A stretch of DNA of 64,000 nt, from assembly GCF_001261775.1 (NCBI RefSeq), contig NZ_LN868536.1, positions 620,001 to 684,000 of the forward strand, read 5' to 3'. The number at the start of each line of letters is the position of its first letter. The stretch's first letter is position 1. The notes beneath the pieces were generated by a model. The model ran no database searches and was not told the origin of the DNA. It saw nothing but the letters and a program-made list of their open reading frames with translations. This stretch comes from Anaeromassilibacillus senegalensis (GTDB taxonomy: Bacteria; Bacillota; Clostridia; Oscillospirales; Acutalibacteraceae). A program made the position numbers and the translations under genes. Shown piece by piece: positions 3,475-34,143 of this stretch.

Positions 3475-3595
3475 GCTTCCTCCTTTAATGTGTTCTGCGC
3501 CGCAAAGAACGGACAACCAAAGGAGGCAGGTTACTGACAACAAATTGTTGCTTCCGGACTACCAACCGGAATGTGTTTTTATCTTTGCGCTTCTT
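3475..3595 (-). promoter_or_regulatory. Probable yjdF (azaaromatic) riboswitch leader
   Basis: The minus-strand leader of yjdF is rich in compatible helices. The ribosome binding site AAAGGAGG (minus strand of 3479-3486) is fully complementary to CCTCCTTT (minus strand of 3519-3526), so it can be sequestered. An outer helix pairs CGCAAAGA (minus strand of 3582-3589) with TCTTTGCG (minus strand of 3501-3508), and inside it are a TTCCGG/CCGGAA hairpin and a CAACA/TGTTG hairpin. Location before yjdF and translational masking fit the known yjdF RNA class. I matched context and pairing, not a covariance model. Confidence 0.7.
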
Positions 3596-30448: not shown

Positions 30449-31870
30449 ATGTATGATTATGACCTGATTGTCATTGGAGCGGGTCCGGCCGGTATCTTTA
30501 CCGCGTTGGAAATGAATAAACTGGCGCCGGAAAAGAAAGTCCTGGTGGTGGATTCCGGCAGCAGCATCGATCACCGCGCCTGTCCGGCGCGCACAAGCGG
30601 GCAGTGCGCCCACTGTAAAACGTGCAGCATTATGAACGGTTGGGCCGGCGCCGGCGCATTCTCGGACGGCAAGCTTTCCCTCTGTGAGGAGGTTGGCGGG
30701 AACGTAACGGATTACCTGCCGGTAGACGAAGTGCGCGCATTGATCCAGTACGCGGATGAAATTTATCTGCAATTCGGAGCGCCAAAAAAAATCTATGGAA
30801 AAAGCAATAAATTTGCCGAGCAGGTTTCCTATCAGGCGCATAAAGAAAATATCAAACTGATTCCCTGTCCGGTCCGCCATATGGGGACGGAGTATTCGTT
30901 TGAGGTTCTGCGCGCCATGTACGATTATCTTTCTGCCTGCCCCAACTTCACCTTTATGGAGCATACCACGGCGGATACCATCCTGGTGGAGGATGGTAAG
31001 GCACAGGGAGCATGGCTGGTCAATCGAAAGGGGGAACGCACGCTGGTGCGCGCCCCGTATGTGATTGCGGCGCCGGGCCGCGGCGGCGCGGAGTGGCTGC
31101 ATGGAATCGCGCAGCAGAATGGACTGTCCACCACGAACAACGCGGTGGATATCGGCGTCCGCGTGGAGGTTCCCAATGCGGTGATGGATCATCTGACAAA
31201 AAATCTCTATGAGGCGAAGCTGGTCTATTACTCTGATACCTTTGAGAACAAGGTGCGCACCTTCTGTATGAATCCGGGCGGTATCGTCAGCGAGGAACAC
31301 TACGACACGCCGGAGGGCGGCATTGCGGTGGTTAACGGACACTCCTACGCGGATGAGGACAAGCGCACGGAGAACACCAACTTTGCTATGCTGGTATCCA
31401 CAACCTTTACGGAGCCGTTCAACCAGCCGATCGAATACGGCCGCTATATCGCGCAGCTTGGCAACATGCTGACGGGCGGCGGTATCATGGTGCAGCGCCT
31501 GGGCGACCTGCTTTTGGGCCGCCGTACCGATCTGGGCCGCCTGAAAAAATCCACCACGGTGCCGACACTGAAAAACGCGGTGCCGGGCGATCTCTCCTTT
31601 GTGCTGCCGCACCGCCATCTGACCAGTATTGTCGAGTCCCTGCGGGCGTTCGACAAGCTTGCGCCCGGGCTGTATTCTAAAAATACGCTGCTCTATGGCG
31701 TGGAGGTAAAGTTCTACTCCTCCAAAGTTGCGGTTAAAAATAATTTTGAGACGGAGATTGACCAGTTGTACGCCATTGGGGACGGCGCGGGCATCACGCG
31801 CGGCCTGATGCAGGCTTCTGTGACCGGCGTTGTAGTGGCACGGGATATCGCCGCGAAAATGAACAAATAA
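30449..31870 (+). CDS. FAD-dependent oxidoreductase (COG2509-like)
   Basis: A 473-aa flavoprotein. The dinucleotide-binding motif VIGAGPAGIFTALE lies at residues about 7-20. A Cys-rich stretch (ACPARTSGQCAHCKTCSIMNGWAGAGAFSDGKL) follows the first strand, and the ATG-like GDGAGITRGLMQASVTGVVVARDI block near the C-terminus binds FAD. This combination is typical of the uncharacterised COG2509 dehydrogenases of anaerobes. The CxxC-like cysteines suggest redox or metal function. Physiological substrate unknown. It has its own near-consensus promoter and is followed by a large inverted repeat. Confidence 0.88.
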   Translation: MYDYDLIVIGAGPAGIFTALEMNKLAPEKKVLVVDSGSSIDHRACPARTSGQCAHCKTCSIMNGWAGAGAFSDGKLSLCEEVGGNVTDYLPVDEVRALIQYADEIYLQFGAPKKIYGKSNKFAEQVSYQAHKENIKLIPCPVRHMGTEYSFEVLRAMYDYLSACPNFTFMEHTTADTILVEDGKAQGAWLVNRKGERTLVRAPYVIAAPGRGGAEWLHGIAQQNGLSTTNNAVDIGVRVEVPNAVMDHLTKNLYEAKLVYYSDTFENKVRTFCMNPGGIVSEEHYDTPEGGIAVVNGHSYADEDKRTENTNFAMLVSTTFTEPFNQPIEYGRYIAQLGNMLTGGGIMVQRLGDLLLGRRTDLGRLKKSTTVPTLKNAVPGDLSFVLPHRHLTSIVESLRAFDKLAPGLYSKNTLLYGVEVKFYSSKVAVKNNFETEIDQLYAIGDGAGITRGLMQASVTGVVVARDIAAKMNK

Positions 31871-31878
31871 GAAGCATG

Positions 31879-31943
31879 AAATCCCCTTTCCCGCAATATA
31901 ATAGGAAGTGGAAACGCTGCCTGTTGATAGGGAAAGGGGATTT
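31879..31943 (+). promoter_or_regulatory. 14-bp inverted repeat covering the ribosome binding site of the next gene
   Basis: AAATCCCCTTTCCC (31879-31892) is exactly complementary to GGGAAAGGGGATTT (31930-31943). The right arm contains the AAAGGGG ribosome binding site of the ATPase gene (ATG at 31946) and is followed by a short T-run. It can act as a read-through terminator, as a translational mask, or both. A TATAAT at 31897-31902 lies in the loop; a transcript starting there would lack the left arm. Confidence 0.65.
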
Positions 31944-31945
31944 TT

Positions 31946-32962
31946 ATGCGAAATCAAGTGTTGCATTATTTTGTGGATACAAACAGTTCACGCGGAGCGG
32001 TGAACTTTTACGACTCCAATTTTCAGCCGCTGCAGCATACGGTACAGCTGCATGCGTATCCTCCGGCACTGCTGGCAAATCTGTTGAGCGGGATCTGCAG
32101 CCGGGCGGAGGAAGAAAAGCTGGATGTAGAGTGCATCCACAACTGCTTGGACAACTCTTTGGAGGGCATTGTTGTGCCGGAACTTTCTGCCGGCGTCATC
32201 AACATTCCGTCTTACCGGGAATACAATGCCCTGAACCTGTTGGAGGATCACAATATCAAGCAGGTTTTGGAGGCACTGGAACAATCCCACCAATTTTTCC
32301 GCGCGGCATTGAAGGTACATGACGCGTGGGAAAAGGTGTATATTGATCAGATGGACTTTGCAGCAGCCAACCAGTTGACCGAGAAAACCATTGACCGCCT
32401 GATTGGGGATCAGCGATTGGAAAAGCAGGGCACAGAGGTCCATCGCTTTTTCGGTGCGGCAACGATCAACGGCGCCTTTGACCACATTGCCAACATCACC
32501 CAATGTTTGGGCAAACGGTATTTCATCAAGGGCCGCCCAGGTACCGGCAAGTCAACTTTCCTGAAAAAGATCGCGCAAAAAGCGGTGGAAGCGGGCTTCC
32601 GCGTAGAAATCTACCACTGTGCGTTCGATCCGCAGAGCCTGGATATGATCGTGTTGAGAGAACTGGATTTCTGCCTGTTTGACAGCACATCCCCGCATGA
32701 ATATTTCCCGTCTCTTCCCACGGACGAAGTAATCGATATCTATGAGGCGGCGGTAACGCCCGGCACAGATGAAGCAAATGCGGCGGCTCTGGTGGATTTT
32801 GCAAAAGGCTATAAGGCGGAGGTGGCAAAGGCCACGGAGAAGCTCCGGCTGGCAAAAGAATTATACGACCGGTTCCAGCAGACGCATTTGTCGCGTATCA
32901 GCGAGGAGGCGCTCAGAGACGTTTCCGCACGAATTGAAAACGAGATATTTCAAAAATCATAA
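31946..32962 (+). CDS. P-loop ATPase, PRK06851-like
   Basis: A 338-aa protein resembling the uncharacterised PRK06851 ATPases of Firmicutes. A Walker A motif GRPGTGKST lies at about residues 196-204, in the second of two similar halves (HRFFGAATINGAFDHIANITQCLGKRYFIKGRPGTGKST); the first half has the related HYFVDTNSSRGAVNFYDSNF but lacks the P-loop. Helical C-terminus from about residue 275. The role is unknown; family members are often found in spore-formers. Its ribosome binding site is embedded in a perfect inverted repeat. Followed by a terminator. Confidence 0.75.
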   Translation: MRNQVLHYFVDTNSSRGAVNFYDSNFQPLQHTVQLHAYPPALLANLLSGICSRAEEEKLDVECIHNCLDNSLEGIVVPELSAGVINIPSYREYNALNLLEDHNIKQVLEALEQSHQFFRAALKVHDAWEKVYIDQMDFAAANQLTEKTIDRLIGDQRLEKQGTEVHRFFGAATINGAFDHIANITQCLGKRYFIKGRPGTGKSTFLKKIAQKAVEAGFRVEIYHCAFDPQSLDMIVLRELDFCLFDSTSPHEYFPSLPTDEVIDIYEAAVTPGTDEANAAALVDFAKGYKAEVAKATEKLRLAKELYDRFQQTHLSRISEEALRDVSARIENEIFQKS

Positions 32963-33031: not shown

Positions 33032-33766
33032 TTATCCACATGCCAATGTTTTGGATGCGGCGTGGATGTGTACGACATTGTTTTCTTCTTGCTCCGCAAT
33101 AAAGTCCTCAATGGCCTTTGCGATGATCGCATGCCCTTTTTCGTTGGGATGAATTCCGTCGTCGCAGATGCAGGATTGATAGTTTACCATTTCCAAAAAA
33201 CGGGTGGTAATGTCAATCAGCGGTACATTTTCCGTCTGCGCGATGCGGCAAACCGCCATATTGTACATCTCGTGCCAGCGGTAGATGTGTTCCTTGTCTC
33301 CCAGAAACTGTAAAATACGGCCAGCGTCCAGTCCCTGGGAAATCCAGTCGAAGTACCGCTGTGCGTCGATGGGAGGAAGGGAAAGGAGTACCGGATGCCC
33401 GCCGTTTGTGCGGATGGTGCGGATCATTTCCGTGTAAGAGCGTTCGAATTCTTCAAGCGGCGTTTTGCAGAGGTGCGGCACGGCAGGATCCTTTGCGACC
33501 TCCGCCCAGTCAAAATCGCAGTCATTGCCGCCAAACTCCAGCACAATGTAGTCGTATTTGGAAACGCTGCTTAGATGTTTTTTTAAAAGCTCCAACCCCT
33601 TGGAAACGGTGCAGCCGAATTTGGAATAGTTGGTTACCGCGATTTCAAACCCGCTTTGCAGCCGGTTGACAAAGCTGTCCTTCAAGAGCGTGTATTTATT
33701 TTTGATGTTGTCGAGGATGACACCTTTTGCCACGGAATCCCCATAAATGCAGGCTGTATCTGCCAT
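33032..33766 (-). CDS. SGNH/GDSL hydrolase family protein
   Basis: A 244-aa cytoplasmic-looking esterase (no signal peptide). Block I is YGDSVAKG with the catalytic Ser (about residue 10), block III is LEFGGNDCDF with the oxyanion Asn, and block V is DGIHPNEKGH with the catalytic Asp-x-x-His. The substrate could be an acylated sugar, lipid or small ester. ATG at 33766 has GGAGGTG 6 nt upstream; the longer frame to 33775 begins inside that site. It stands alone, convergent with the ATPase gene. Confidence 0.88.
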   Translation of the reverse strand: MADTACIYGDSVAKGVILDNIKNKYTLLKDSFVNRLQSGFEIAVTNYSKFGCTVSKGLELLKKHLSSVSKYDYIVLEFGGNDCDFDWAEVAKDPAVPHLCKTPLEEFERSYTEMIRTIRTNGGHPVLLSLPPIDAQRYFDWISQGLDAGRILQFLGDKEHIYRWHEMYNMAVCRIAQTENVPLIDITTRFLEMVNYQSCICDDGIHPNEKGHAIIAKAIEDFIAEQEENNVVHIHAASKTLACG

Positions 33767-34143
33767 ACTTGACACCTCCGTAATTTATCTAGTTTTTAAT
33801 ACTATATATTATGATTGCGATAATGTCAATATATACAGAAGAAAATTATTATCTTGTTAACATTATTCTATGTTTTCTTAGGGAAAACATACATAAAAAA
33901 TGTAAAATGAATCAACAAACGGCGGTTCAAACAGTCTATATCATTTATTTTGAGCCTCCGCTTGTACATTTTAATAATAAAAAATATAATAGAGCTATGA
34001 AGATGTTATATGTGAAGGATACAGCAATCCTAGAGAAGCCCCCTGTTTCGTTGGTTTGCCGGGCAGATACAGGAAGTGAACAGCCGGGCGCTGCAGGGGG
34101 GCACATGGTGGAAAATAAAAACAGAAAAGGATCGTGAGGATAC
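33767..34143. other. Intergenic region, 377 nt, AT-rich
   Basis: Holds a perfect palindrome ATGTTTTC-TTAGG-GAAAACAT (33870-33890), a promoter for the two-component genes (33962-33990), and a structured leader in which GCCCCCTG (34038-34045) can pair with CAGGGGGC-type sequence at 34094-34102. A 108-codon open frame here has no ribosome binding site or recognisable product, so I do not call it. Confidence 0.55.
33962..33990 (+). promoter_or_regulatory. Promoter of the second two-component operon
   Basis: TTGTAC (33962-33967), 17-nt spacer, TATAAT (33985-33990); the leader would be about 145 nt. Confidence 0.65.

Follow-up and report, generated by a model that had tools for sequence, protein, structure and literature searches.

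A putative translation lock enclosing a candidate sporulation promoter at a PRK06851-type NTPase gene of Anaeromassilibacillus senegalensis

In the 64,000-nucleotide stretch of Anaeromassilibacillus senegalensis DNA analysed here (the window), a long hairpin covers the start of a P-loop NTPase gene and holds, in its loop, the -10 element of a candidate sporulation promoter. We put at roughly 60% the probability that a sporulation promoter is embedded here in a lock that blocks translation of read-through RNA. In the proposed mechanism, read-through RNA from the upstream FAD-protein gene would carry both arms of the hairpin and form a helix of about 19 bp, which would bury the Shine-Dalgarno sequence and the start codon of the NTPase gene, such that no NTPase protein would be made from vegetative read-through. 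In sporulating cells, a sigma-E RNA polymerase would instead initiate within the loop, just past position 31902, and the resulting short mRNA, devoid of the left arm, would present an open start region, allowing the NTPase to be made in the mother cell. We infer four of these steps: that RNA reads through from the FAD-protein gene, that transcription starts in the loop, that sigma E is the factor used in this species, and that translation differs between the two RNAs.

The upstream gene (30449..31870, plus strand) encodes an FAD-dependent oxidoreductase-like protein of 473 aa (FAD-depend_C, PF21688, 1.7e-14), and is the presumed source of the read-through RNA. It is followed on the same strand by the gene for a PRK06851-type P-loop NTPase of 338 aa (31946..32962), a relative of C. 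difficile CD3298. Against PRK06851 (NCBIfam NF005317), for which the curated cut-off is 689 bits, the NTPase scores 269.9 bits (3.9e-80), most strongly over residues 106-316, and is homologous to that equivalog model while falling outside it. Excerpts of the published work describe PRK06851 as the 'dual-wield NTPase' family, identified with CD3298 (PMC10949312), and report that spores of a CD3298 deletion contain less than 1% of the normal dipicolinic acid (PMC5509370), a CaDPA defect that is confirmed elsewhere (PMC10449524). They further report that the mother cell expresses CD3298 under the control of SigE (PMC5509370); when sigE is mutated in C. difficile, expression of the gene is 0.19, and the gene is listed with a sigma-E promoter (PMC3789822). 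In the translation of the target gene, the P-loop GRPGTGKST occurs in the second half only, and because the N-terminal half contains no GxxxxGK[ST], one of the two sites of the 'dual-wield' NTPase seems to have been lost in this protein. On the far side, a convergent GDSL-lipase-like gene (33032-33775, minus strand) carries a sigma-E-like motif upstream, ATATATT-N14-CATAATAT.

Between the FAD and NTPase genes, on the plus strand, lie two arms of 14 nt, AAATCCCCTTTCCC (31879-31892) and GGGAAAGGGGATTT (31930-31943), which are 100% complementary and are spaced by a loop of 37 nt (31893-31929) with a predicted nested stem and GAAA tetraloop. The earlier note had described a perfect 14-bp inverted repeat whose right arm contains AAAGGGG and whose left arm is complementary to it, and both descriptions are borne out by the arm sequences. 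AAAGGGG, the Shine-Dalgarno sequence, lies 6 nt 5' of the ATG at 31946, and the left arm, which serves as the anti-RBS strand, lies mostly within the spacer of the promoter described below. The predicted RNA helix pairs 31874-31892 with 31930-31949, with a single bulged U, and since it extends to 31949 the start codon is predicted to be paired as well; the embedding of the ribosome binding site in the helix thereby stands, with the correction that the predicted fold covers the AUG too. Folding of the plus-strand RNA yielded -42.1 kcal/mol, compared with a mean of -16.7 in shuffled sequences (z -8.9), and none of 200 shuffles equalled it. A repeat of this kind exceeds chance expectation: across 464 kb of this genome we counted 37 perfect inverted repeats of at least 14 bp with loops of 3-60, and only 2 of these 37 have a loop of at least 20. 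The 96-bp element as a whole occurs once in the genome. A second match in the repeat search, 23 bp long, lies at a gltX-like start (L002:1501-1523), where the stretch is 96% identical to the target's start region, to which the overlap is restricted; we take this second gene, from its sequence, to be glutamyl-tRNA synthetase-like.

The loop contains TATAAT at 31897-31902, which the earlier note had read as a promoter. The hexamer is present as described, and no sigma-70-type -35 element was found for it on the plus strand; judged by sequence, its most plausible role is that of a -10 element in a sigma-E-type sporulation promoter, which it fits better than sigma-70, so that the promoter reading is retained and the housekeeping box is not. 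The full -10 element, AATATAAT, occupies 31895-31902, and a weak -35-like match, GCATGAA, assigned by comparison with relatives, occupies 31874-31880 in the lower left strand of the helix. Together they give GCATGAA-N14-AATATAAT, a weak sigma-E type with neither the consensus C in its -10 nor the ATA in its -35, and transcription from it would be expected to start at about 31908-31910. As the left arm lies wholly upstream of the -10, an RNA from the loop promoter cannot contain it. Among the congeners, L004 shares the weaker AATATAAT, again preceded at a distance of 14 nt by GCATGAA, and L005 and L006 carry at the corresponding place GGATATT-N14-CATACAAT, a very good sigma-E-type promoter.

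These motifs were called with the sigma-E promoter consensus, with the -35 pattern broadened (A or G at position 5) after inspection of the sequences. Across the PRK06851 family, CATANNNT was found upstream in 22 of 29 loci, as against 63 of 1093 starts in the target's own genome and 7.4% of shuffled upstream regions, a count that takes in the -10 only and compares 70 nt upstream of the PRK06851 start regions with 52 nt per own-genome start. The target (L003) and L004 are among the 7 of 29 loci that do not have CATANNNT, and L047, whose upstream frame is broken, was omitted from both the motif analysis and the count. A protein encoded in the genome closely matches the sigma-E family, scoring 342.3 bits, just short of the 348.6 cut-off. 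Excerpts of PMC3789822 describe an ATA/AC distinction in the -35 and a shared -10.

In prediction, opening the region from the Shine-Dalgarno sequence to the AUG of the target costs 26.5 kcal/mol in the read-through RNA and 4.2 in the short RNA, the latter modelled as starting 6 nt after the -10. The target's opening energy was the highest of 379 starts, and again the highest (29.2) of 1093 crude gene starts called in 1.26 Mb of its own genome, both being rankings in which the starts are crude and some of the highest entries resemble terminators with a wrongly called start. Among 688 own-genome ATG starts with a good Shine-Dalgarno sequence, the target lock of 26.2 ranked first, with the next highest at 17.3, a median of 0.3 and 9 of 688 reaching 8.7. 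These predicted energies and ranks favour the earlier proposal that read-through RNA is silenced and that loop-started RNA is translatable. The shuffle test that we applied to such locks is somewhat liberal, in that 3 of the 110 control starts scored above every one of their 40 shuffles. Among the 13 own-genome sigma-E-like candidates found at the 1093 starts, a lock at p<=0.05 occurred in 1, so that a lock is not general for such promoters in this genome.

The opening-energy rankings brought up other genes with hairpins at their ribosome binding sites. In three genes of the same genome, for ECF-like sigma factors by Pfam assignment, a long hairpin covers the gene's own ribosome binding site (L083:6584, minus; L088:18873, minus; L110:6643, plus); these genes take ranks 2, 6 and 9 of 1093 in opening energy. 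Their proteins share similar N-termini, M/L-W-x-L-x-x-GPSD, and the arms in L110, AATCCCCTTT and AAAGGGGATTTTTTATG, resemble those of the target. A D-Ala-D-Ala carboxypeptidase gene (Peptidase_S11; L066:12648, minus strand) has a similar hairpin at its ribosome binding site and a TTG start.

A hairpin over a ribosome binding site, with a structured loop, could also belong to a leader on a longer transcript that is controlled by a ligand, by temperature or by a protein, as in a riboswitch or thermometer, and the second-highest own-genome lock (17.3) is found at a gene which we take to be precorrin methyltransferase-like, presumably of a type often under a cobalamin riboswitch. We consider such a leader very improbable at the target, where no Rfam family matched the hairpin at gathering score (the best permissive hit, on the opposite strand, scored 26.6 bits where the cut-off is 50), and where the loop holds a promoter motif that is also present in distant relatives. 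Elsewhere in the window, at 3493-3592 on the minus strand, there is an azaaromatic (yjdF) riboswitch (93.3 bits).

To follow the hairpin within the genus (g1), we compared four genomes, those of the target (L003), L004, L005 and L006. Opening costs in the read-through and short RNAs, respectively, were 22.6 and 4.4 kcal/mol in L004, 15.5 and 5.4 in L005, and 8.0 and 5.3 in L006. When the upstream part was shuffled, the locks of L003, L004 and L005 each stood above all 300 shuffles; L006 has a weak lock of 2.9, with 28 of 300 shuffles as high. The long helix was not recovered by RNAalifold on a MAFFT alignment of the four congeners, and we paired the arms by hand, since MAFFT failed to put them in register. 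Paired in this way, the four congeners keep 14, 14, 12 and 13 of 14 pairs, their left-arm differences mostly preserve pairing, and one A-U to U-A change has occurred on both arms.

The weakness of L006 bears on two other explanations. A sigma-E spacer rich in pyrimidines, facing a purine-rich Shine-Dalgarno sequence, could pair with it as a by-product that has no selected role. When the promoter elements were kept constant and shuffling was confined to the spacer and the sequence ahead of the -35, about 6% of shuffles matched L005 (127/2000) and L006 (121/2000), which are unremarkable by this measure, so that a C/T-rich spacer opposite a G/A-rich Shine-Dalgarno sequence explains part of the pairing. 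We find the by-product reading improbable: only 2 and 8 of 2000 such shuffles matched L003 and L004, respectively, the target stands first of the 688 starts, and the locks of both loci in a second genus (g78, below) exceeded 300 of 300 shuffles. Double-strand-specific RNases cut helices near 19 bp, and the target helix, at about 19 bp, is near the size for a processing site that would separate two mRNAs, not block ribosomes; with a weak helix in L006, we regard this reading as scarcely credible. A translation lock is the reading we prefer over both.

Beyond the genus, we compared locks in 25 of the 29 PRK06851 loci, the four omitted (L034, L035, L008 and L051) having no convincing promoter at the expected distance. 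Most relatives in the family have no lock: outside L003-L005 and L041-L043, at least 18 of 300 shuffles were as high in these 25 loci. In genus g78, in which 2 of 11 genomes contain a close homolog, none of 300 shuffles was as high as the lock of either locus (L041 and L042). The g78 arms have other sequences: the left arm overlaps the -10, and the right arm reaches the AUG, with AUGG directly after it and no U-tract; the topology is that of the target and the sequence is different, and on this comparison the locks at the PRK06851 gene are apparently of separate origin in the two genera. Genus g106, with a different upstream gene, has moderate locks of 7.8 in L043 (1 of 300 shuffles) and 6.3 in L039 (18 of 300).

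The gene order also speaks to a further explanation, in which the hairpin is mainly an intrinsic terminator of the FAD gene, with a U-tract running into the next start codon and the hiding of the ribosome binding site as a by-product. No other terminator was found between the FAD and NTPase genes, the stem core is preceded by AAA and followed by U5 in L003 and U6 in L004, and six loci of a third genus (g26), with the same FAD gene upstream, carry a canonical terminator at the same place in the gene order. We nevertheless consider a terminator unlikely at the target, as the 37-nt loop far exceeds those of usual intrinsic terminators, the U5 behind the core is mostly base-paired according to the fold prediction, only AAUCUUU follows the core in L005 and L006, and the g78 right arm runs straight into AUGG; scans for short-loop terminators after the shared FAD gene found none in 4 of 4 g1 and 2 of 2 g78 loci.

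The six g26 terminators were found among seven loci, and the seventh (L124) has an imperfect hairpin followed by T4; this count leaves aside L123, with no same-strand gene within 450 nt, and the partial L125. Locks in g26 were only 1.5-3.3 in the 3 loci measured. We regard this pattern of either a terminator or a lock as the best indirect sign of function, one drawn from few independent lineages. The promoter-dependent switch proposed in the earlier note gains from the comparison, with a lock in a second genus and a terminator in a third, although its likely purpose is better described as insulation of a sporulation gene from leakage. Since the same gene pair has a terminator in one genus and locks of apparently separate origin in two others, it is conceivable, as a tentative generalisation, that locks with embedded sporulation promoters are interchangeable with terminators and that developmental genes may widely be insulated at translation.

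If the translation lock is real, translation would be a level at which a developmental gene can be kept silent during growth, with no terminator involved, and such insulation would have evolved on more than one occasion at this gene pair. It would add a regulatory layer to a gene of a family needed for dipicolinic acid packaging, and would offer a sequence test for other sporulation genes, namely a left arm within the sporulation promoter and a right arm over the ribosome binding site.

Within the open-licence literature, as far as the available excerpts go, we found no description of an RBS-locking hairpin for the PRK06851 family, and only two precedents for locks of this type, sigG and phage T4. 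For B. subtilis sigG (spoIIIG), excerpts of PMC5942855 describe a hairpin of 20+ bp that is proposed to block translation of spoIIGA-sigE read-through RNA and that cannot form when transcription begins at the sporulation promoter of sigG itself. The likeness to the target, so far as these excerpts describe it, is that of a sporulation gene behind another gene, with a read-through hairpin over its ribosome binding site that its own promoter escapes; the two differ in that the B. subtilis gene encodes sigma G, is transcribed from a sigma F/G promoter in the forespore and is unrelated in sequence, whereas the target is a PRK06851 NTPase gene with a sigma-E-type promoter. In the target's own genome, sigG (L128, C11:822234-822989, minus strand) lies about 30 kb from sigE, and a hairpin there pairs the promoter region with the ribosome binding site in a modest lock of 5.7 (16 of 300 shuffles as high). 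A terminator-like hairpin is also found upstream of this gene, so that lock and terminator are not always exclusive.

In phage T4, according to excerpts of PMC3014915, early long RNAs of gene e (also soc, 49 and I-TevI) hide the ribosome binding site in a helix, and late promoters lie within the DNA encoding its 5' strand, such that late RNAs do not contain that strand and are translated. As described there, gene e resembles the target in that a site hidden in the long RNA is paired with a promoter placed so that the short RNA escapes, and differs from it in using a phage late sigma factor, in serving lysis timing and in having no homology to the target. C. difficile CD3298, in turn, shares the gene family of the target, with sigma-E control that is known in C. 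difficile and at motif level here. The locking principle is thus already known from B. subtilis sigG and T4 gene e, and because both share the logic of the PRK06851 locus, this locus is probably a new example of it.
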